56,349 nucleotides of DNA from Bacteroidales bacterium 6E (GTDB lineage: Bacteria > Bacteroidota > Bacteroidia > Bacteroidales > Prolixibacteraceae). Shown in pieces: positions 23,502 to 56,331 of this stretch (positions are counted from its first letter, which is position 1; each line of letters begins with the position of its first letter). Location: assembly GCA_001270045.2 (NCBI GenBank), contig DF970677.1, positions 1 to 56,349 of the forward strand, written 5' to 3'. The position numbers and the translations under genes were made by a program. The notes below the pieces were generated by a model. That model saw only the letters and a list, made by a program, of their open reading frames with translations. It was not told the origin of the DNA and searched no databases.

Positions 23502-23868
23502 GGCAGGTCGATGGTACGGGGATACGGGGTGCGAGGATGAGAGGATGAGAGGTCAGATGGTACGGGGTTCAGGGTGGCCTTACTGTCCCAAACGCTTTAG
23601 TAAACGAGAGCTGGCAGATGATAGCATCCTCAAATGAAAATTATTTCATCCCGTATATAATGCAGGAGTCACATTTATGAAAAACAGGGTGTTTTAATAA
23701 CCCTGCAAGGGTGACATAATTGTAGATAGCGCCCATGGATTAAACAGGCAACCCTGTAAGGGTGACACGATTGTAGAAAACGGTGTATCCCTACTCCCAC
23801 CCTCTCGAGGTTTTTTTTGGTAAATTGGTGTAATTCGTGGGCAAAAAAAGAAAGAACAAGCCCTTTCC
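23502..23868. repeat. Gene-free spacer with dispersed repeats
   Basis: No gene is seen. At about 23562-23617 lies a degenerate copy of the element also found at 31427-31482 (shared phrases: CGGG..T..GGG.TGGCCTT, AACGC.TTAG). At 23701 and 23752 lie two copies of the core CCCTG(C/T)AAGGGTGACA followed by ATTGTAGA. The same core ends both tandem arrays in this window. The second copy is followed by a degenerate C-rich stretch but not a clear hairpin. This spacer coincides with a visible rise in GC content to the right. Confidence 0.7.
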
Positions 23869-26671: not shown

Positions 26672-28519
26672 TCACAATCTGATGATTCCAGTCAGCCAAC
26701 CGGCACTGTGCGGTATCCAGTCCTCATCGGTAAAGGAGAACGGACCGTCATTTTCCCTTTTGGGCTCCACATCATATTTAAATTGTTCGCCCGTCGAAAA
26801 GCCGTTGCAGATGACGCCGCGTGTCTGGAACCAAGTGCCGGCCCAACGCTTGCCGACATGACAAATCATGCTGACAGGCAGCGCCATGCCTTCCGGGAGG
26901 TCCATGCTATAGACTACACTTCCCTTTGACAGGGCGGATCTGGTGATTCCGGCATTCAGGCCCGCCAGCCACTGAAGGTTGGCATAGGCGATATGTCTCA
27001 ATTTAAGATCATTGAACAGTTTCGACAGCTCAAGTGCCAGCGCGGCCGTGTAGCCGTATATGCAGTTTGTCCCGTGAAAAGTTCCGCAAAACCAGATTGG
27101 CCCATCTTCGATAAAGATACCTTGCGGCACGAGGTAAAACGGATTTGCCTCGCACGCCGGAACCAGGTACCCATAGGTAAAATCGTTCAGGCAGTCTTTC
27201 CACTTTACGGCGTCATCGTGGTTGGGATACCATTCAAGCAGCTCGATGAACGGCATCAGAAAATTGGGGTATATGCCTCCCATGTCGGTCCCGAACTGCG
27301 CTCCACCTTCACCGGGCACGATTCCGTGAGTCCATGAGGGTTCGGCATGAGGAAGGCTGGAGTATTCATAAAAATGGCCATAAAAACCGTGGATGGACTT
27401 TTCTTTGGGAATCTGTCGGCTCAGGACCTGATTCGCATAATCGAAGACCAGTGGTTCGGCAGAGTCATCTCCACCCTTCACCATCTCCATGGAGGCACGG
27501 AGCATGGTCAGGATATCGCGCGTAGGCCATTCGTCATCGGGTATCACCACCCGTTCCGAAATCCCCCGCTGCATCTTTACGTAACCATAATCGCCCATGG
27601 GTTTGGCCTTGTTGACGAGCCATCCGAAGGCCAGTTTTGCGGTTGATTCGTATACCGCCTTTTTCTCCTGAAAGGAACCGGGAAGTAAGCGAACAGCATT
27701 CATCAGGGCCACCACCGCCTTCGAGGCATCATGGGGTAATATGTCCGATGCATGTTGCAGGACGTCATGCGACATGGCCCCTGCCTCAAAACCCAGTTCC
27801 CGGGCCTTGTTTTGCGTGAGCACCAGATAGTCGCAACCACATGCCATCTGTTCATGAATTCGTTTCTCCATCTTGGGATCGATGCGGCCACTGCTTTTCT
27901 CCAGGACTTCAGCAAGGGCAATGACCATAGAGCTTTGGGCCGGACTCTCGACCCAGAGGGTCCCGGCATCCTGCCATCCGGCTCCTACGCCCGTAAAATG
28001 CCTCCTGCGCTCCAGCATATCAACGCCTGACCATTTGAGGGTACTGTCCCACAGGATGTTTCTTTTCACCTCCAGGCCCGAATCCCTGAACACGACCATG
28101 CTGCCCGACCTTACTTCAAGATCCCATTCACCTTCTTCATCAAGGCTGTCGAATTCGGCAATCCACCAATGGCTTTTCCAAATTTCACCCCAGTAGCGGC
28201 AGTCTGTCCGGTGTTCCTTTTCTTTGGAGGTCGGGACCAGCACACAAGTGGCCGGTTCGGGCAGCAGGGCTTTATCAGGCAACCTGACCAACACCCTGAC
28301 AGGCAGATTCGGCTCATAACCGACCTGTGAGAACAACAAGCCGGCCACCCCCGATTGGGGATCGAATGATTCATCCAGGAAAACCGGGAAATATGACCGT
28401 TTCTCGGTGCTGGTTTCCGTACCACACGAAGGCAGCATCCCAGCTCCCGCTACCGCCACGCCCGAGACCACTCCGGTTTTGAGGAATTTTCTCCTTGTCA
28501 GTTCTGGTTTGGTTTCCAT
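26672..28519 (-). CDS. Tat-exported GH9-like protein
   Basis: A 615-residue protein with a twin-arginine signal (TRRKFLKTG) and a possible lipobox at LPSC (GAGMLPSCGTE). An Ig-like CelD-N-type domain follows (FSQVGYEPNLPVRVLV, about residues 60-155), then an alpha-barrel-like region with GAGWQDAG, the position of the GH9 DAGDY motif. The second Asp/Tyr of that motif is changed (DAGTLW), so the activity may differ from cellulases. The classical C-terminal NE acid motif is not obvious. It heads the deoC/permease/kinase operon, 19 bp from deoC. Inference: it releases the sugar this operon consumes. It could also be non-catalytic. Confidence 0.65.
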   Translation of the reverse strand: METKPELTRRKFLKTGVVSGVAVAGAGMLPSCGTETSTEKRSYFPVFLDESFDPQSGVAGLLFSQVGYEPNLPVRVLVRLPDKALLPEPATCVLVPTSKEKEHRTDCRYWGEIWKSHWWIAEFDSLDEEGEWDLEVRSGSMVVFRDSGLEVKRNILWDSTLKWSGVDMLERRRHFTGVGAGWQDAGTLWVESPAQSSMVIALAEVLEKSSGRIDPKMEKRIHEQMACGCDYLVLTQNKARELGFEAGAMSHDVLQHASDILPHDASKAVVALMNAVRLLPGSFQEKKAVYESTAKLAFGWLVNKAKPMGDYGYVKMQRGISERVVIPDDEWPTRDILTMLRASMEMVKGGDDSAEPLVFDYANQVLSRQIPKEKSIHGFYGHFYEYSSLPHAEPSWTHGIVPGEGGAQFGTDMGGIYPNFLMPFIELLEWYPNHDDAVKWKDCLNDFTYGYLVPACEANPFYLVPQGIFIEDGPIWFCGTFHGTNCIYGYTAALALELSKLFNDLKLRHIAYANLQWLAGLNAGITRSALSKGSVVYSMDLPEGMALPVSMICHVGKRWAGTWFQTRGVICNGFSTGEQFKYDVEPKRENDGPFSFTDEDWIPHSAGWLTGIIRL

Positions 28520-28656
28520 GATTCAGTCAGGTTTTGATCAGGGTTTCACGCTACTGTGCTCCCCCTCTTTGGTTTAGCCACACCAATTTACTTTTCTTTT
28601 TCGATTTTCAGTCCTGCTAAACAATATTTTTGGAGGAGAACCAATTTTGGATCATT

Positions 28657-28719
28657 ACATAGGGTTTCCAGAAACCCTGTATGTAGTTCAAAATAGATTA
28701 TGACGCGATCAATCGCGTC
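28657..28719. repeat. Two short palindromic repeats (REP-like)
   Basis: AGGGTTTC-ca-GAAACCCT (28661-28678, extended by ACAT/ATGT) and GACGCGAT-ca-ATCGCGTC (28702-28719) are perfect 8-bp stems with 2-nt loops. They lie 140-200 bp upstream of the GH9-like gene. Such short palindromes are usually dispersed non-coding REP elements. A regulatory role is not excluded. Confidence 0.7.
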
Positions 28720-28780
28720 TCCACAAATCCACTTCCAAATGAAAGGGAACTGATTATATATCATTGGCTATGGCACTCAG

Positions 28781-29252
28781 CAACCTTTAAGGGATTTAAT
28801 TTTTGATCATGGGTAATAGCATCAAACAACCCTGTTAGGGATTTAATTTTTTTATCATGGGTAATAGCATCAAACAACCCTGTTAGGGATTCAATTTTAG
28901 GATGATGAGGCCTTGCATCCAGGAACCCTGTAAGGGATTCAATTTAGGATGATGAGGCCTTGCATCCAGGAACCCTGTAAGGGATTTAATTTTTTTATCA
29001 TAGGTAATAGCATCAAACAACCCTGTTAGGGATTCAATTTAGGATGATGAGGCCTTGCATCCAGCAATCCTGTAAGGGATTCAATGTAGGATGATGAGGC
29101 CTTGCATCCAGGAACCCTGTAAGGGATTTATTTTTTTATTATGGGTAATAGCATCAAACAACCCTGTAAGGGATTCAATGTAGGATGATGAGGCCTTACA
29201 TCCAAAAACCCTGTAAGGGATTCTATTTTGGATCATAGGTTATGGCATGCAG
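28781..29252. repeat. Tandem array 1: ten units of about 47 bp, two alternating spacer types
   Basis: Each unit begins (C/G)AACCCTGT(A/T)AGGGATT(C/T)AATTT and is followed by one of two fillers. Type A reads TTATCATGGGTAATAGCATCAAA. Type B reads GGATGATGAGGCC.TTGCATCC, with GGATG/CATCC able to pair. Order is roughly A A B B A B B A B and a hybrid. Units decay at the left edge (two diverged units before 28781). Fillers recur almost unchanged, so this is not a CRISPR. No ORF uses it. The region between the GH9-like and GH44 genes (28520-29425) holds nothing else but repeats. Confidence 0.85.
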
Positions 29253-29345
29253 GAACCCTGTAAGGGTGACACATTTGTAAAAGTGCCAGACCAACTCCCC
29301 CTCTCTCTTGTTATCGGGGGTTGCCCGGGGGCACCCCCCGATAAC
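29253..29345. repeat. Array-terminal element with hairpin, copy 1
   Basis: The last core reads AACCCTGTAAGGGTGACA, then ATTTGTAAAA, a C-rich stretch, and a hairpin GTTATCGGGGG...CCCCCGATAAC (29310-29320 with 29335-29345). Its inner part is GGTTGCC...GGCACC. The same order is found at 31680-31765 and 50921-51010 with different lower-stem sequences that still pair. Confidence 0.8.
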
Positions 29346-29425
29346 AATCCGAGCAACATACCCCCAACCCAACTTTTCAAAAAAGTACCTAAATTGCACC
29401 CAACATCAAAAACCATTAAAACCAG

Positions 29426-31330
29426 ATGCAACTGCAAACCAACCTGATAAAAAGGATCCGGATCACTCTGGCGCTGATGCTCTGCATCACAGCCACCCAC
29501 GCCCAAGAGGTAACTATCACGATCGATGCCTCCAAGGACATACGCGCGGTGTCACCCTACATATACGGAAACAACAACGGCTACGACAAGCCCGCCCAGT
29601 TCTACCGGGATGCCGGACTACGTATGTCGCGGATGAACAACGGCAATAATGCCACCAAGTACAACTGGCGCAAGAAAATCACGAGTCACCCCGACTGGTA
29701 CAATAATGTCTACTCCTACAGCTGGGATGCACGCTCAAAATTAGTTTCGGAAAACCACCCCAACATGCAAATCATGTGGGCTTTCCAACTGCTCGGCAGG
29801 GTGGCATCGAGCAACGCCCACAACTTCAACGAGGGAGCCTTCAATAATTACCAGTGGTGGGAAGGGGTTAACCAGAACCTGGCCGGCGGAGGGGTTCCCA
29901 ATACCAGCGGCACCAACCTCCACAAGGCGGCCGTCGAGGGAAACATGACTCTCTATACCCAGGAGTGGCCTGCCGACTCGACCGTGGGTATTCTCAACCA
30001 CTGGTTCGGTGAGGGTGGCCTTGGACTGAACAAGGAGCAGTTCCTCTACTGGAACATGGACAATGAACCCGACATCTGGAACGGCACCCACGACGATGTG
30101 ATGTCCGACGGACTGCTGCCCGCTTCGGAATTCATGGACCGCTATATCGAGGTGGCCAAAAAAGCCAAGGAACTTTTTCCCGGAATTAAGATCTGCGGAC
30201 CCGTGACCACCAGCGAATGGCAGTGGTTCAAGTGGGGCGAGGAGAGACTGACAATCGACGGCAGGTATTACTGCTGGTTCGAATATTTCATCAAGCGTTG
30301 CGCCGACGAGGAGAAGGCTTCGGGGGTAAGGGTTGTCGACGTGTTTGACATCCATCATTATCCATATGCCCCCAACGTGACCGGAGCCCTCCAGAACCAC
30401 CGCTCTTTTTTCGACAAGACCTACATCTACCCCGGTGCCAACGGGGTGAAAACCATCAATGGCGGATGGGACACCTCCCAAAACAAGGTGTATATCTTCC
30501 AGCGGGTCAACGACTGGCTCGACAAGCATTTTGGGCCAAACCACGGCATCGGGCTGGGCGTGAGCGAGTGGAGTACCGGCGTTGACCAGCCCAACCCCAA
30601 TGTGGCATCGGTGATTTATGCCTCCACCCTGGGTACCTTTGCCAACCATGGTGTCGAATATTTCACACCCTGGACATGGAATGTCGGTATGTGGGAAACC
30701 CTGCACCTGTTCAGCCGATATGCCCGAGAATACAGCGTTTCAAGCACCTCGACGCTCGAGCATACCGTATCGGCCTATTCCACCCTGTCAGAAGCAGCCG
30801 ACTCCATGACCGTCATCCTGGTCAACCGTGACCAGTCGGCCCCAAGAACCGTAACGGTCAACCTCACCCATTTCACGGCGGCCGAAGGAAACCACAAAAC
30901 ACTTCAGCTCTCGTCCCTGCCGGCAGCCGAAACTTTCAAGTCGCACACCAACAATGCACTGAAGGAGAATACGGTGGCAGTCGCATCCAACTCATTCACC
31001 ATTACCGTGCCATCCCTCTCCACCACGGCCATATTGCTGAAGGCACACACCGTGGGAGTTCAGGGAATCAACAATCGCCTGGGCGACATGATCCTCTACC
31101 CCAACCCTGCCAGTGAAACCGTATCCATACTGCTTGACCTGTCCACTTCCGTCCCGGTCCGGATCACCCTCTACGACAAACAAGGCCGCACGATTAAGGC
31201 CCTCGACGCCTGGCATGATGGCCACTCCCCCATCCGGGTCGAGGTGGCCTCCCTGCAGCCGGGAATTTATTTCCTGGAGGTGAAGGGTGACCGGTTTGTT
31301 TCGGTGAGAAAGGTGGTGCGGGGATTGTAG
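29426..31330 (+). CDS. GH44 endoglucanase/xyloglucanase with T9SS sorting domain
   Basis: A 634-residue secreted enzyme. Signal peptide to about THAQE. The GH44 barrel has SPYIYGNNNG, the acid/base Glu214 in WNMDNEPDIWNGTHDD, and the candidate nucleophile Glu381 in GVSEWSTG. A beta-domain follows (about 450-550). Last comes a type IX secretion type-A sorting domain (about 555-634: ILYPNPASETVSI...LQPGIYFLEV). GH44 enzymes cut internal beta-1,4-glucan or xyloglucan. The sorting domain predicts export through T9SS and cell-surface attachment or release. It stands alone between two repeat regions, with no promoter I can identify firmly. Confidence 0.88.
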   Translation: MQLQTNLIKRIRITLALMLCITATHAQEVTITIDASKDIRAVSPYIYGNNNGYDKPAQFYRDAGLRMSRMNNGNNATKYNWRKKITSHPDWYNNVYSYSWDARSKLVSENHPNMQIMWAFQLLGRVASSNAHNFNEGAFNNYQWWEGVNQNLAGGGVPNTSGTNLHKAAVEGNMTLYTQEWPADSTVGILNHWFGEGGLGLNKEQFLYWNMDNEPDIWNGTHDDVMSDGLLPASEFMDRYIEVAKKAKELFPGIKICGPVTTSEWQWFKWGEERLTIDGRYYCWFEYFIKRCADEEKASGVRVVDVFDIHHYPYAPNVTGALQNHRSFFDKTYIYPGANGVKTINGGWDTSQNKVYIFQRVNDWLDKHFGPNHGIGLGVSEWSTGVDQPNPNVASVIYASTLGTFANHGVEYFTPWTWNVGMWETLHLFSRYAREYSVSSTSTLEHTVSAYSTLSEAADSMTVILVNRDQSAPRTVTVNLTHFTAAEGNHKTLQLSSLPAAETFKSHTNNALKENTVAVASNSFTITVPSLSTTAILLKAHTVGVQGINNRLGDMILYPNPASETVSILLDLSTSVPVRITLYDKQGRTIKALDAWHDGHSPIRVEVASLQPGIYFLEVKGDRFVSVRKVVRGL

Positions 31331-31624: not shown

Positions 31625-31765
31625 TGAATCCCTTAAGGATGGCAAATTTGCAAAAAACATCAATTGATAAACCAATCGGAATCCCGTAGGGATGGCACAT
31701 TTGTAAAAACAGTGCATCCCTCCGCCCCCATGTTTTCGTGGTTGCCTGTCGGCAACCACGAAAAC
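31625..31765. repeat. Array-terminal element with hairpin, copy 2
   Basis: Two diverged cores (AATCCCTTAAGGATGGCAAATT at about 31627 and AATCCCGTAGGGATGGCACATT at about 31680, each followed by TTG-A-AAAA) precede a C-rich run. Then comes a perfect 15-bp hairpin GTTTTCGTGGTTGCC-tgtc-GGCAACCACGAAAAC (31732-31765). There is no long array here, only the terminal part. It lies about 50 bp upstream of the arsR promoter and could insulate it. Confidence 0.8.
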
Positions 31766-50238: not shown

Positions 50239-50276
50239 CATGACCTGAGCAAGCCCTGCACCAAACATCTTCGCAG

Positions 50277-50920
50277 GTAACCCTGTAAGGAATTTGAGGG
50301 GGACAGGATGACAGAGGTATCCTTGGGTAATATTATTTGATCAAGCCCTGAACCAACCATCTTCGCAGGTAACCCTGTAAGGAATTTGAGGGGGACAGGA
50401 TGACAGGGATATCCTTGGGAATTTTATTAATCAAGCCCTGCACCAACCATCTTCTCAGGTAACCCTGTAAGGAATTTGAGGGGGACAGGACGACAGAGGT
50501 ATCCTTGGGTAATATTATTTGATCAAGCCATGCACCAAACATCTTCGCAGGTAACCCTGTAAGGAATTTGAGGGGGACAGGATGACAGGGATATCCTTGG
50601 GAATTTTATTAATCAAGCCCTGCACCAACCATCTTCTCAGGTAACCCTGTAAGGGATTTGAGTGGGACAGGATAACAGAGGTATCCTTGGGTAATATTAT
50701 TTAATCAAGCCATGCACCAACCATCTTCTCAGGTAACTCTGTAAGGAATTTGAGGGGGACAGGACGACAGAGGTATCCTTGGGTAATATTATTTGATCAA
50801 GCCATGCACCAAACATCTTCGCAGGTAACCCTGTAAGGAATATGAGGGGGACAGGATGACAGAGGTATCCTTGGGTAATATTATTTGATCAAGCCCTGAA
50901 CCAACCATCTTCTCAGGTAA
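50277..50920. repeat. Tandem array 2: seven units of 90-92 bp
   Basis: Cores GTAACCCTGTAAGGAATTTG recur at about 50277, 50369, 50459, 50551, 50641, 50733 and 50825, with periods alternating 92/90 then 92. Each is followed by a nearly constant filler: GGGGGACAGGATGACAG then a paired AGGAT/ATCCT, TTGGG, and ATCAAGCC.TG.ACCAA.CATCTTC.CAG. Two filler variants alternate (TAATATTATTTGATC versus AATTTTATTAATC). It is not a CRISPR, because the fillers recur. Confidence 0.85.
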
Positions 50921-51010
50921 CCCTGTAAGGGTGACATGATTGTAAAAACATGAACATCCCATCCCACCCCATCCAGAGTTTTCCTGGTTGCCGAAGGCAA
51001 TCAGGAAAAC
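50921..51010. repeat. Array-terminal element with hairpin, copy 3
   Basis: The last core changes to CCCTGTAAGGGTGACATGAT followed by TGTAAAAACATG, a C-rich stretch and the hairpin GTTTTCCTGGTTGCC-gaa-GGCAATCAGGAAAAC (50978-51010, 15 bp with one G-T pair). Copies 1 and 3 end arrays of different unit length in the same way. Confidence 0.8.
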
Positions 51011-51114
51011 TTCACAAAAATCAATCAAAAAAACTTCAGTTTGGTCTTTCATTTTTACCCGGCAATTCCTAACTTTAGAAACGATACTTCCTAAATAATT
51101 GAAATTCAATATTT

Positions 51115-52041: not shown

Positions 52042-55000
52042 TCAATTAACCCCACTCAGCTCATTAGCGATCATTTCGGCTTGTTTCAGGACGGTTTCTG
52101 TGGCCAGCATTTGCATGTCGGGCGGATAACCAAATTTCCGGAGCAATCTTTTAACTGCCACTCTAAGCTTGGCTTTAACGCTTTCCTTGATGGTCCAGTC
52201 GATCGAAGCATTCTGCTTGATCGTGTCGGTCAAGACTACTGCCAATTCCCTGAGTTTTTCTTTCTGCATCAGTTCCCTGGCACTGTCGTTATTGGCTACC
52301 GCGGTGTAAAAGGCATATTCGAAGTCGGTCAGGTTCATGGCTTTGGCTTCGTTATCCATTTCAACGATGCTTTTGCTTAAATGGATCAGTTCCTCGATGA
52401 CCTCGGCGGCTGTAAGGATTTTATTGTGATACTTCTTTATTGAATTTTCAAGCATTTCCATCAGGGACTTGCTCTTGACGAGGTTCTTTTTCGTCCTCGA
52501 TCTTATTTCATCGTTCAATAGTTTTTTCAATACCTCAAGGGCAACATTCTTGTGCTCCATCCCTTTCAGTTCCAATAGGAAATCTTCGGACAGGATTGAA
52601 ATGTCAGGTTTCTTTATCCCTGCTGCATCAAAAACATCAATTACTTTTTCGGATACCAGGGCTTTGTCAATCACCTGACGTATGGTTGTTTCTATTTGCT
52701 CATTGGTTCTGCCTGATCCCGTTCCGTCAAATTTGGCCAACCGGGCTTTCACCGCCTGGAAAAACGAGATTTCATCCTTGACGTCCATTGCCTGATCGTG
52801 TGGAATGGCAATCGCAAAAGCCATTGACAAAGCGTTTACCTCATTGATGTATCGTTTCCTGCCATCATCCAAGCCTAAAATATGTTCCTCCGCAGCCAAT
52901 ATCATCGAAAGTTTTTGTGCTGTACCAGCCTGGAAATAATCTTCATAGTTAAACCCGTGGTACATATCCGCAACTACTTCAATCTTCTCAAGCATTAATT
53001 GTACCGCTTGTTCCTGTAAAATGGTAGGATCACCCTTTCCGCCTGATTCAGAATAAAATGAAAGTGCTTTTTTCAGGTCAGATGCGATTCCGAGGTAATC
53101 AACCACCAACCCACCCGGTTTATCTTTATAAACACGGTTAACCCTTGCAATTGCCTGCATCAGGTTATGGCCTTTCATTGGCTTGTCGATGTATAAGGTG
53201 TGCATGCTCGGGGCATCGAAACCGGTGAGCCACATATCGCGGACGATCACCAGCTTCAGTTCATCATCGGGATTTTTCATCCGGTCAGATAAACTCCTTC
53301 GCTGCTGCTTTGTGGTATGGTGTTTCGAAATCTTTGGACCATCAGAAGAAGAAGATGTCATCACAACCTTAATTGCTCCCTTGGTCAACTCCTCCGAATG
53401 CCATTCAGGCTTTTGACTTATGATTTCCCCATACAAATCGGCGGCAATGCGGCGACTCATGGTCACGATCATGCCTTTGCCCTCAAACACCTCCTGGCGT
53501 TGTCCAAAATGCTCGATAATGTCCCTGGCGATCTGCCTTATCCGGTCCTCGCTGCCCACCAGCGCTTCCAGCTGGGTCCACTTGGCCTTGGCCCTTTGGG
53601 TGGTGGTCATGTCCTCCTGGTCAAGCTCGTCATCCAACTCATTTACCAGCTCTTTCCCCTCATCGCTCAGGTTCACCTTGGCCAAGCGGCTTTCGTAATA
53701 GATGCGAACCGTTGCGCCATCTTCCACCGCCTGGGCAATGTCGTATATGTCGACATAATTGCCGAATACGGCAGGGGTGTTGACATCGGTACTTTCAATG
53801 GGAGTGCCTGTAAAACCCAGATAAGTGGCGTTGGGCAAGGCATCGCGCATGTACTTGGCAAAACCATACACGATTTTTTTGCCGATGACCTGTCCCTGTT
53901 CGTTACGGTCGTCAATGGTTTTGGCAGTAAATCCGTATTGCGTGCGGTGTGCCTCATCGGCAATCACCACAATATTTTCGCGCTCCGAAAGCATTTCATA
54001 GATGTTGCCATCATCGGGCTGAAACTTTTGGATGGTGGTAAAGACCACACCCCCCGAAGCCACTCTCAGCAGTTCCTTCAGGTGGTTCCGGTCGCCAGCC
54101 TGCACCGGCTCCTGGCGCAGCAACTGTTTCGAGGCGGCAAATGTATCAAAGAGTTGGTCGTCGAGGTCGTTACGGTCGGTAATCACCACAATGGTAGGGT
54201 TGTCGAGGGCCAGTACAATTTTTCCGGTGTAAAAGACCATCGAAAGTGATTTGCCGCTACCCTGGGTGTGCCATACCACACCACCCTTCCGGTCACCAAC
54301 AGGCTGCGCCTTAACTCCCCGTAATCCATAACTTTCGGGCGATTCCCCTGAAACAAACACGGGCATACGGCTATCCTGGCTATAACCCGATGCACGTAAA
54401 GTCGATTCCACCGCCCGGTTGACGGCATAATACTGGTGATAAGCGGCCAGCTTCTTGACAGTTGAAATGGTGATGATTCCGGTATCAGGATCTTCCCGTT
54501 TTGTTTTCTCGAAAACGATAAAATGACGGATTAAATCGAGGAGGGTTTCCTTGCTGAGCATCCCGGAAATCAAGGTTTCCAACTGACTTACCAAATGCGA
54601 TGCTTCAGCTTTCCCATCGGCCGATTTCCAGGCCATGAAACGGCTGAGCCCAGAGGAAATGGTACCTGATTTGGCTTCAAATCCATCGGAAATTATCACA
54701 AACCCGTTATAGGTGAATAGGCTTGGAATAATGTATTTATATGTCTCAATTTGGTTATAGGCTGAATGAATGGTTGCATTCTCATCAACCGCATTTTTAA
54801 TTTCGATGACTACCAACGGGATGCCGTTGACGAATAAAATGACATCAGGGCGTTTGTTGTGGTTGTTTTCAACAACAGTGAATTGGTTGGCAACCACAAA
54901 GTCGTTATTGTAAGGATTATTGAAATCTATCAGCCATACAAGATCCCCCCTTTCGCTTCCTTCCACATGTTTTGACACCGGGATACCCTCGGTCAGAAGC

Positions 55001-55272
55001 CGGTGAAACGCTTCATTGTTGGCCAACAATTCAGGGGAGGCTATGCGTTTAATTTCCCTGATGGCTTCGGCCTGTGCATCGGCAGATATGGATTTATTGA
55101 TCCGCTTTACGGCAACCCGCAAACGGTCGACCAACAGAACCTGCTCATATGATTCCCGTTCAGGTGTTTCACCATCGGGAGCAATATTGGGTGCATAAAT
55201 GTATTCGTAACCCAATTTGTCCAGTAACTCGATGGCAAATGATTCGATGGTATTTTCTGTGATTCGGGTCAT
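52042..55272 (-). CDS. hsdR: Type I restriction endonuclease subunit R
   Basis: A 1076-residue motor/nuclease subunit from the ATG at 55272. A TTG four codons earlier would overlap the preceding stop. N-terminal PD-(D/E)xK nuclease with PDVILFVNG and VVIEIKNA (Glu157/Lys159). SF2 translocase with Walker A QGSGKS (Lys341), DEAH box (Asp439-Glu440-Ala-His), FTGTPI, and DMWLTGFDAPSMHTLYIDKPMKGHNLMQAIARVNR. C-terminal helical domain binding the methylase complex. It cuts unmodified DNA after translocation. hsdM and hsdS are not in the window and should lie upstream, beyond the IS at the right edge, if still present. Confidence 0.95.
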   Translation of the reverse strand: MTRITENTIESFAIELLDKLGYEYIYAPNIAPDGETPERESYEQVLLVDRLRVAVKRINKSISADAQAEAIREIKRIASPELLANNEAFHRLLTEGIPVSKHVEGSERGDLVWLIDFNNPYNNDFVVANQFTVVENNHNKRPDVILFVNGIPLVVIEIKNAVDENATIHSAYNQIETYKYIIPSLFTYNGFVIISDGFEAKSGTISSGLSRFMAWKSADGKAEASHLVSQLETLISGMLSKETLLDLIRHFIVFEKTKREDPDTGIITISTVKKLAAYHQYYAVNRAVESTLRASGYSQDSRMPVFVSGESPESYGLRGVKAQPVGDRKGGVVWHTQGSGKSLSMVFYTGKIVLALDNPTIVVITDRNDLDDQLFDTFAASKQLLRQEPVQAGDRNHLKELLRVASGGVVFTTIQKFQPDDGNIYEMLSERENIVVIADEAHRTQYGFTAKTIDDRNEQGQVIGKKIVYGFAKYMRDALPNATYLGFTGTPIESTDVNTPAVFGNYVDIYDIAQAVEDGATVRIYYESRLAKVNLSDEGKELVNELDDELDQEDMTTTQRAKAKWTQLEALVGSEDRIRQIARDIIEHFGQRQEVFEGKGMIVTMSRRIAADLYGEIISQKPEWHSEELTKGAIKVVMTSSSSDGPKISKHHTTKQQRRSLSDRMKNPDDELKLVIVRDMWLTGFDAPSMHTLYIDKPMKGHNLMQAIARVNRVYKDKPGGLVVDYLGIASDLKKALSFYSESGGKGDPTILQEQAVQLMLEKIEVVADMYHGFNYEDYFQAGTAQKLSMILAAEEHILGLDDGRKRYINEVNALSMAFAIAIPHDQAMDVKDEISFFQAVKARLAKFDGTGSGRTNEQIETTIRQVIDKALVSEKVIDVFDAAGIKKPDISILSEDFLLELKGMEHKNVALEVLKKLLNDEIRSRTKKNLVKSKSLMEMLENSIKKYHNKILTAAEVIEELIHLSKSIVEMDNEAKAMNLTDFEYAFYTAVANNDSARELMQKEKLRELAVVLTDTIKQNASIDWTIKESVKAKLRVAVKRLLRKFGYPPDMQMLATETVLKQAEMIANELSGVN

Positions 55273-55273
55273 C

Positions 55274-56331
55274 CTATACAACAATAGGTTCGTGTTTTTC
55301 TAACGCATTTTTTACATCAATATCCAGGAGCTGTTCAATTTCAGAAAAAAACCATTTCCAACGTTCGGTCATTGAATCCAGGTTCCATTGTCCGTTAAAT
55401 TTATTCAAATTGTAGTCGTTCACTATTTGCTGTGTAATATTGAATGCAGTAATCTTTTCATCCTTATTCTCATATTTACCCTTACCCTTGTAAACATCAA
55501 TTTTTACATTGAATGGGTTATTGCTTGCCTCAATATTTTTAGCTCCGCTTAACAAGGTAATATTTCCTGCGCTATTGAGCCATTTAGCGGCATAGTTTTT
55601 CGAAATGTGATCCCATTCAGGAAATTTTTCATACTTTACTGGTAAGATATGTTCAAGGTGTAAGTCATGATCTAGGTCAATAAACACACTTTTACTTTTG
55701 TCGGTAGCATTATATTCCATCATCAATAAAAGTGGCTTACACCACATTTCTGAGGCTATCTGCTCTGAAGTTAAGTTGTAAAGAGCCATCGAAACAATAT
55801 TGTCTTTATCTATTTTGTTCTGAAGCTCTTTTCGAATTTCAACCATTGGTTTTTTCTCTCTAATCCATTTTATCAAATTAAAAGAGGTTTGCTTTATTTG
55901 CGATAATGTTTTCCCTGCAATCCAATACAAATAATAAAACCTCCGTAAATCTATCGTCAAAGCTTCAAACTCATCATAATCAGTATGCAAAGCTGTAAGC
56001 AAAATGCCTTTCCAATACATATTCCATCGAAGATACCAGAAGGAATAAATAATGGAATTACGGCTTTCATAAATAAATTTGTAGTAGGAATTGGCGAATT
56101 TTTTAATATCGGCAATAACTTCATTAGGGTCAAGCGGAGTAAAGGCTGCCTGTAACTCATCATATAACGATTTCTTTGGATTCTGTCCCAAAATGTAGTA
56201 TTCGTATATAATGAAAAGATCATTGAGGTTTATATCGCAGGTTTTGATAATCTGTTCCATCTCCCGCCAATCGGCAATAAACTGTTCTTCTTTTAGATTT
56301 GATGTTTCACGGTCATCTTTATATTTTGAGT
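55274..56331 (-). pseudogene. DUF262/DUF1524 protein, 5' end cut by an IS
   Basis: About 352 host-encoded residues remain of a DUF262-type protein. The C-terminal DUF1524 HNH-like domain is clear: LDHDLHLEHILPVKYEKFPE, NSAGNITLL and NIEASNNPFNVK. The frame runs right into the IS end, where a TTG lies inside the IS sequence, so the real N-terminus with the DUF262 catalytic DGQQR-type motif is gone. GmrSD-like proteins and related accessory proteins of type I systems have this layout. The stop is 1 bp before hsdR, so they formed one operon. IS-driven expression of a fragment is possible. Confidence 0.8.

Follow-up and report, generated by a model that had tools for sequence, protein, structure and literature searches.

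Tandem arrays and complete repeats in the window

The window, meaning the whole 56,349-nucleotide stretch of contig DF970677.1 of Bacteroidales bacterium 6E that was analysed, contained two tandem arrays and other copies of the same repeat. Array 1 (28782-29253, plus strand) lies between a minus-strand gene at 26672-28519, which matched nothing in Pfam, and a plus-strand gene at 29426-31330 encoding GH44 and Por_Secre_tail domains. The best homologues of the latter protein in three genomes of the genus were 49-50% identical. The two genes are divergent and array 1 sits upstream of both, not at a shared gene end. Array 2 is located at 50246-50918 on the plus strand. A type I restriction R subunit gene (HSDR_N, SWI2_SNF2, T1RH-like_C) was found at 52045-55284, approximately 1 kb past array 2. 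A separate tandem repeat occupied 1-284; its unit of 113 bp was present in 2.5 copies and contained an inverted AAAGGG...CCCTTT stretch.

TRF reported a period of 47 bp with 10.2 copies at 28784-29266. Counted by unit, array 1 comprised ten units of 46-48 bp followed by a terminal core starting at 29254, confirming the tandem array described in an earlier note on this DNA. Each unit consisted of the core AACCCTGTAAGGG, or a variant of it, and a filler. With up to two mismatches the core occurred at 22 sites in the window, some in the two arrays and others as single copies, compared to 1.16 expected and a maximum of 5 in 100 shuffles. The near-palindrome previously seen in the core forms a stem closed by a loop of 3 nt, and within array 1 the outer A-T pair of this stem was present in the terminal copy only. 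The fillers had been described as two types in an irregular order. Three recurring types (A, B and C) were found and the order was regular: A, A-B-B, A-B-B, A-B-C. The last three A units were spaced 143 and 142 bp apart. This is a higher-order repeat and indicates that multi-unit blocks were duplicated in array 1, in place of the stepwise growth from the defined end that had been suggested; the defined end is an intact dispersed repeat. The three filler types seem to have diverged from a single sequence. Comparison of an A unit with a B unit showed identity at 13 of 13 core positions and 22 of 35 filler positions (Fisher p 0.010, a single unit pair). The leftmost core of array 1 was degenerate (AACCTTTAAGGG). 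Further left, weak unit-like stretches (61-71% over 51 nt) were seen within 28631-28790 on the plus strand. Over 51 nt, the stretch 28631-28681 was 63-71% identical to five stretches farther along, and its identity to 28740-28790 was 61%. These may be decayed copies or may be due to chance.

Array 2 had 90/92-bp units (TRF and unit comparison) with the same core as array 1 and a different, unrelated filler. Both arrays ended in the complete element AACCCTGTAAGGGTGACAyrwTTGTA. A covariance model, R1, was built from alignment A2, which comprised 69 distinct 26-mers from the flanks of transposase genes in other genomes. R1 matched five sites in the window with E below 0.001, the next site having an E of 4.6. 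The five sites were all on the plus strand. Two were the terminal repeats of array 1 (29254-29279, REP-like, stem ACCCT-GTA-AGGGT plus tail, 26.9 bits, E 1.9e-4) and array 2 (50919-50944, 32.1 bits, E 7.2e-6). A single complete repeat, ATCCC-GTA-GGGAT plus tail, was located at 31680-31705 (32.3 bits, E 6.4e-6). The remaining two formed a head-to-tail pair 51 bp apart at 23699-23724 (25.9 bits, E 3.6e-4) and 23750-23775 (29.4 bits, E 4.1e-5), the second with a C-rich stretch and no clear second hairpin. As R1 matched the terminal cores of both arrays, only the last core of each array, and none of its inner units, is a complete repeat. The inner units of both arrays resembled the terminal unit up to, or just short of, the end of the core, and the tail was absent from them.

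As the earlier note had stated, the final core of array 1 switches to TGACA, after which come a C-rich run and a hairpin. The hairpin spans 29308-29347 and its arms are 19 nt long. The "fixed terminal element" seen there is a defined end but is not unique to array 1, being dispersed and also ending array 2. Second hairpins were predicted by folding at 50977-51011 in the terminal module of array 2 and at 31732-31765 in the module at 31680. Twelve stretches selected because they resembled one another, three from the window and nine from elsewhere, were compared. Each had the repeat, or in two cases the tail behind a different hairpin, before a C-rich linker and a second, longer hairpin. This longer hairpin folded at a similar place in 11 of the 12 modules; the lowest-energy fold of the other (L191) differed. 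Its stem sequences varied among the copies. The longer hairpin may mark the opposite end of a small non-autonomous element. An intrinsic terminator was not favoured, as most copies begin with the T-rich arm and end with the A-rich one. At three loci on two contigs of the same genome (L183, L184 and L182; contigs C1 and C2), phrases like CTGTGTTCATCTGTGGTGAAT recurred in several places downstream of the second hairpin.

Dispersed copies in the genome and in the genus

The repeat family of this genome has a 5-bp stem, a GTA loop and the tail TGACAyrwTTGTA. Other tail forms, for example GAyATTATTrTA and GACCTGTTTGTA, occur elsewhere. The pattern AACCCTGTAAGGGTGACA, with up to three mismatches, was found at 83 sites in the genome compared to 4 for the reversed pattern. 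The earlier note had named a lack of other genomic copies among the signs that would point to inert local duplication; copies were plentiful. They were single or clustered and were located on several contigs. Stem variants were kept in paired form (ACCCC-GTA-GGGGT, ACCCT-GTA-AGGGT and ATCCC-GTA-GGGAT). The exact form AACCCYRTARGGGTGACA was present in 5 of 140 genomes of the family and is lineage-specific. An array of approximately 161-bp units was seen on contig C9 (L042, 7500-8800), each unit containing a repeat, a C-rich stretch, a GGATGCCATCC hairpin and a second repeat with another stem.

The orientation of 25 repeat clusters in the genome was compared to local GC skew. Plus-strand clusters were in negative skew in 14 of 17 cases and minus-strand clusters were in positive skew in 5 of 8 (Fisher p 0.061, clusters on the same contig not being independent). 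It is at most suggestive of an orientation leaning with GC skew, as single-strand transposition might give.

Seven genomes of the genus were scanned with R1 at E <= 1. Matches numbered at least 121 in the genome studied here (G000), 32 in G139, 7 in G137, 3 in G135 and 0 in G134, G136 and G138. The first figure is a lower bound as 150 candidates were scored per genome. Copies of the transposase gene described below numbered 1 in G000, 2 in G139, 6 in G137 and 0 in G135, G134, G136 and G138. The presence of the gene and of the repeat agreed across the genus save for G135, whose assembly is 66% complete, but the copy numbers did not track each other. Facing hairpins, ATCCC-GGA-GGGAT and ACCCC-GGA-GGGGT, with outer ends 115-117 bp apart, were found in 6 of 20 stretches examined in G139. 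Two further stretches of the 20 had the facing doublet with one base changed in the partner. The similarity continued to the left beyond the hairpin, and the copied unit in G139 may be longer than the doublet. One of the two gene surroundings in G139 (L249) contained no perfect GNA hairpin. A tandem array of GNA hairpins with a spacing of approximately 66-68 bp was also seen in G139 (L237, 2906-3108).

The transposase and the hairpins around its homologues

The sole match to PF01797 (Y1 transposase) in the genome was at C10:36178-36522, inside a large repeat cluster at C10:34.5-37.1 kb. Head-to-tail repeats with variant stems and loops also lay around this gene (L041, 4500-7100), at spacings of just 25-27 bp. 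The protein has 153 amino acids and matched NCBIfam transpos_IS200 at 3.9e-21, while the match to REP_Tyr_transpos was weak (20.2 bits compared to a cut-off of 80). It matched solved TnpA chains by sequence. The structure model (pLDDT 89.3) was closest to the TnpA of ISDra2 and IS608 (2xma_A, 4.5e-08), and RAYT bound to a REP hairpin was a poorer match (4er8_A, 1.5e-04). The motifs DHVH, WQ and YISNQEQHH were identified by eye against published motifs and the protein fits TnpA-Y1 subclass 1.2 on this basis. Y115 was invariant in the 27 homologues of alignment A1, which also showed a conserved C-terminal stretch. Relatives of the gene (E <= 0.001) were present in 121 of 140 genomes of the family and in 159 of 295 sampled genomes of the class.

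The best 80 of at least 565 confirmed loci of transposase homologues, retrieved with alignment A1 from one genome collection, were examined. Many were from Bacteroidetes or its subgroups, and Ignavibacteria, Anaerolineales, Chloroflexi and others were also included. GNA hairpins were defined as a perfect 5-bp stem with at least three G/C and a GNA loop. GNA loops form unusually stable DNA hairpins. Within 600 bp of the gene 335 such hairpins were found in 91,696 bases, compared to 34 in 440,371 bases beyond 1,500 bp. At least one was near the gene in 74 of the 80 loci and none in the other 6. The near loops were mostly GAA (190) and GTA (119). A stricter form, with an A-T outer pair and G then A/G after the stem, was near the gene in 49 of the 80 loci (165 near compared to 20 far). 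Upstream of the gene the stricter form favoured the gene strand (66 compared to 21) and downstream the other strand (47 compared to 31). For 76 loci the sequence covered 150 bp to either side of the gene; 49 of them had a hairpin upstream on the gene strand and 51 had one downstream on the other strand. Both sides were inverted in this way in 38 loci and both were in the opposite orientation in 2. Same-strand neighbours within 120 bp of each other were spaced 45-56 bp apart in 120 of 151 cases, a range that includes the 46-48 bp units of array 1. TTRTA followed within 17 nt of 154 of the 335 near hairpins, in 58 loci, and the tail is less general than the stem-loop. In a preliminary look at 30 class loci, AACCC-n-GGGTGACA was found in 11 and looser forms in more; the 80-locus comparison with its distance controls supersedes it.

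Pairing was assessed at sites picked by loop and tail, blind to the 5' arm. All five Watson-Crick pairs were present at 101 of 116 near sites, and at 0 when the arm was slid by 1, 2 or 3 nt. The corresponding figure for far sites was 13 of 34, some of which are probably true dispersed copies. In alignment A2 95.4% of cells paired compared to 77.1% when shuffled, 69 cells were changed on both sides compared to 14.1, and the covariation score was 0.581 compared to 0.207. None of 500 shuffles reached any of these three values, and slid structures scored 0.074-0.137. The number of stem pairs changed on both sides in A2 was at chance level (4 compared to 3.3, with 200 of 500 shuffles as high). Loop class, GAA or other GNA, required 9 changes on the transposase tree compared to about 24.4 when shuffled (0 of 500 as low), a comparison in which host kinship is not separated. 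In this tree 6 of the 80 rows were unlabelled and 44 of 77 inner branches were weakly supported. Loop type follows the transposase tree.

Origin of array 1 and comparison with known systems

The hairpins are dispersed and covarying, and their position, orientation, spacing and loop type tie them to the genes of one transposase group. The favoured explanation, with a probability of about 0.7, is that array 1 is a local tandem amplification from a dispersed REP-like hairpin repeat tied to a Y1 (HUH) transposase and presumably spread by transposition. A non-autonomous mobile repeat was the first alternative offered in the earlier note and it fits best. The transposase would bind the folded hairpin in single-stranded DNA, as suggested by the IS200/IS605 and TnpA-REP enzymes; hairpin recognition is known for the former, according to PMC8266576. 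It would cleave in or near the tail and so spread the repeats. Head-to-tail neighbours approximately 50 bp apart could then expand into arrays by unequal recombination or slippage. Array 1 itself would have grown by ordinary duplication and its inner units would no longer be substrates of the transposase, since they lack the tail that the last unit has. It is read here as a decayed local amplification.

A number of observations count against this explanation. The inner units lack the outer stem pair as well as the tail, TTRTA follows only 154 of 335 hairpins, 6 of 80 loci have no hairpin and the exact motif is confined to 5 of 140 genomes. One gene in G139 has no perfect GNA hairpin beside it, copy numbers and gene numbers are unmatched, 13 of 34 far sites pair and double-change pairs are at chance level.

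The best placed of the alternatives, although unlikely, is an inert minisatellite that arose by local duplication alone, unconnected to any transposase and with an incidentally shared core. Recombination or slippage is all that the block structure and the decay at the left edge need, and the tail missing from the inner units also suits it. Such an origin does not sit well with the independent array 2, which has the same core and terminal element beside an unrelated filler, nor with a core dispersed in the genome. The unit length is also the usual spacing of the repeat, and a model made from transposase flanks of other genomes recognises the terminal cores.

A slightly lower probability was given to a host function, in which the hairpins serve in RNA or DNA by protecting mRNA ends, stopping transcription or binding protein and the array is kept for that purpose. 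This does not predict the clustering round transposase genes. Array 1 is upstream of divergent genes and not at a shared end, and the order of the arms in most second hairpins is unlike that of an intrinsic terminator. On the other side, the hairpins are intergenic, the core was conserved between one pair of diverged units and REPs in other bacteria have such roles (PMC3733652). A CRISPR array or processed RNA array is highly improbable in spite of the short, regularly spaced near-palindrome, as the fillers recur and are homologous to each other, no part of the window matched Rfam at gathering thresholds and the core is a dispersed repeat. A CRISPR array was rejected on the three recurring filler types, which are not unique spacers, and the earlier view that this is not adaptive immunity was upheld.

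Beyond array 1, a wider proposal is favoured with somewhat less confidence. A common class of IS200-like Y1 transposases in Bacteroidota, subclass 1.2 by motif, would form a REP-type system with its own code, namely a GNA mini-loop on a covarying stem of 5 bp, with a tail on the 3' side replacing the GTAG foot. Loop type would follow the enzyme tree and the repeats would seed arrays with a period of approximately 50 bp that can pass for CRISPRs. If this is true, a transposase group with no recorded DNA partner, whose gene relatives are common in the family and class, gains one. The substrate would be small and defined, and could be tested with oligonucleotides. The proposal would also account for a type of array liable to be taken for a CRISPR, and would place a REP-like system on an enzyme of the IS200 side rather than the known TnpA-REP side.

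No earlier description of the repeat was recognised in the literature searched by term and string, which included few subscription journals. Longer repeat strings had no match in the literature text, and 11-mers matched papers including one on Synechococcus CRISPRs. The text available of PMC11194056 mentions a "RayT" gene in Chryseobacterium and gave no match for "palindrom". CGTC repeats in Bacteroidetes are mentioned in PMC3733652. The statement in the earlier note that no named element has this layout was too strong. REPs and REPINs with RAYT/TnpA-REP come close to it, and PMC3116915 describes REPINs clustered in tandem.

The transposase resembles TnpA-Y1 subclass 1.2 in its motifs (DHVH, WQ and YISNQEQHH), its length of 153 amino acids, its occurrence in Bacteroidota and its low copy number here. 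The subclass table in the 2018 survey (PMC6006769) lists DH[IV]H, WQ and YIKNQKEHH with a mean of 148 amino acids, and describes these enzymes as generally without typical terminal IS200 structures. GNA hairpins were near 74 of 80 homologue genes; as the survey says "generally", this is a difference and not an exclusion. The enzyme is like those of IS200/IS605 (IS608, ISDra2) in sequence and fold. Unlike in those elements, the hairpins on one side of the gene are inverted relative to those on the other and often come in twos, copies without a gene number in the hundreds, and no defined element ends were seen. The inverted hairpin doublets of G139, a member of the same genus, are similar to REPINs as described in PMC3116915. 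The arrays in the window, however, are head-to-tail single hairpins, and the similarity in G139 extends past the hairpins.

The closest likeness is to REP elements and REPtrons with TnpA-REP/RAYT (class 2 of PMC6006769), which are also short, dispersed, multi-copy hairpins with clusters and arrays. As in REPtrons, the hairpins flank, and apparently coevolve with, a Y1 HUH transposase gene of single-copy scale. Unlike in canonical REPs, GTAG/GTGG was located 0-2 nt from the 5' foot in none of the 335 hairpins on the top strand and in 2 of them on the bottom strand, and a 3' tail is present instead. The enzyme has Y---Q--HH where class 2 TnpA-REP, according to the same source, has the Y..NP motif. 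The system would work like a REP system and departs from the canonical GTAG REP in two defining features, the foot and the Y..NP motif. It shares with REP systems in the broad sense both the many dispersed hairpins and the association with a Y1 HUH gene.
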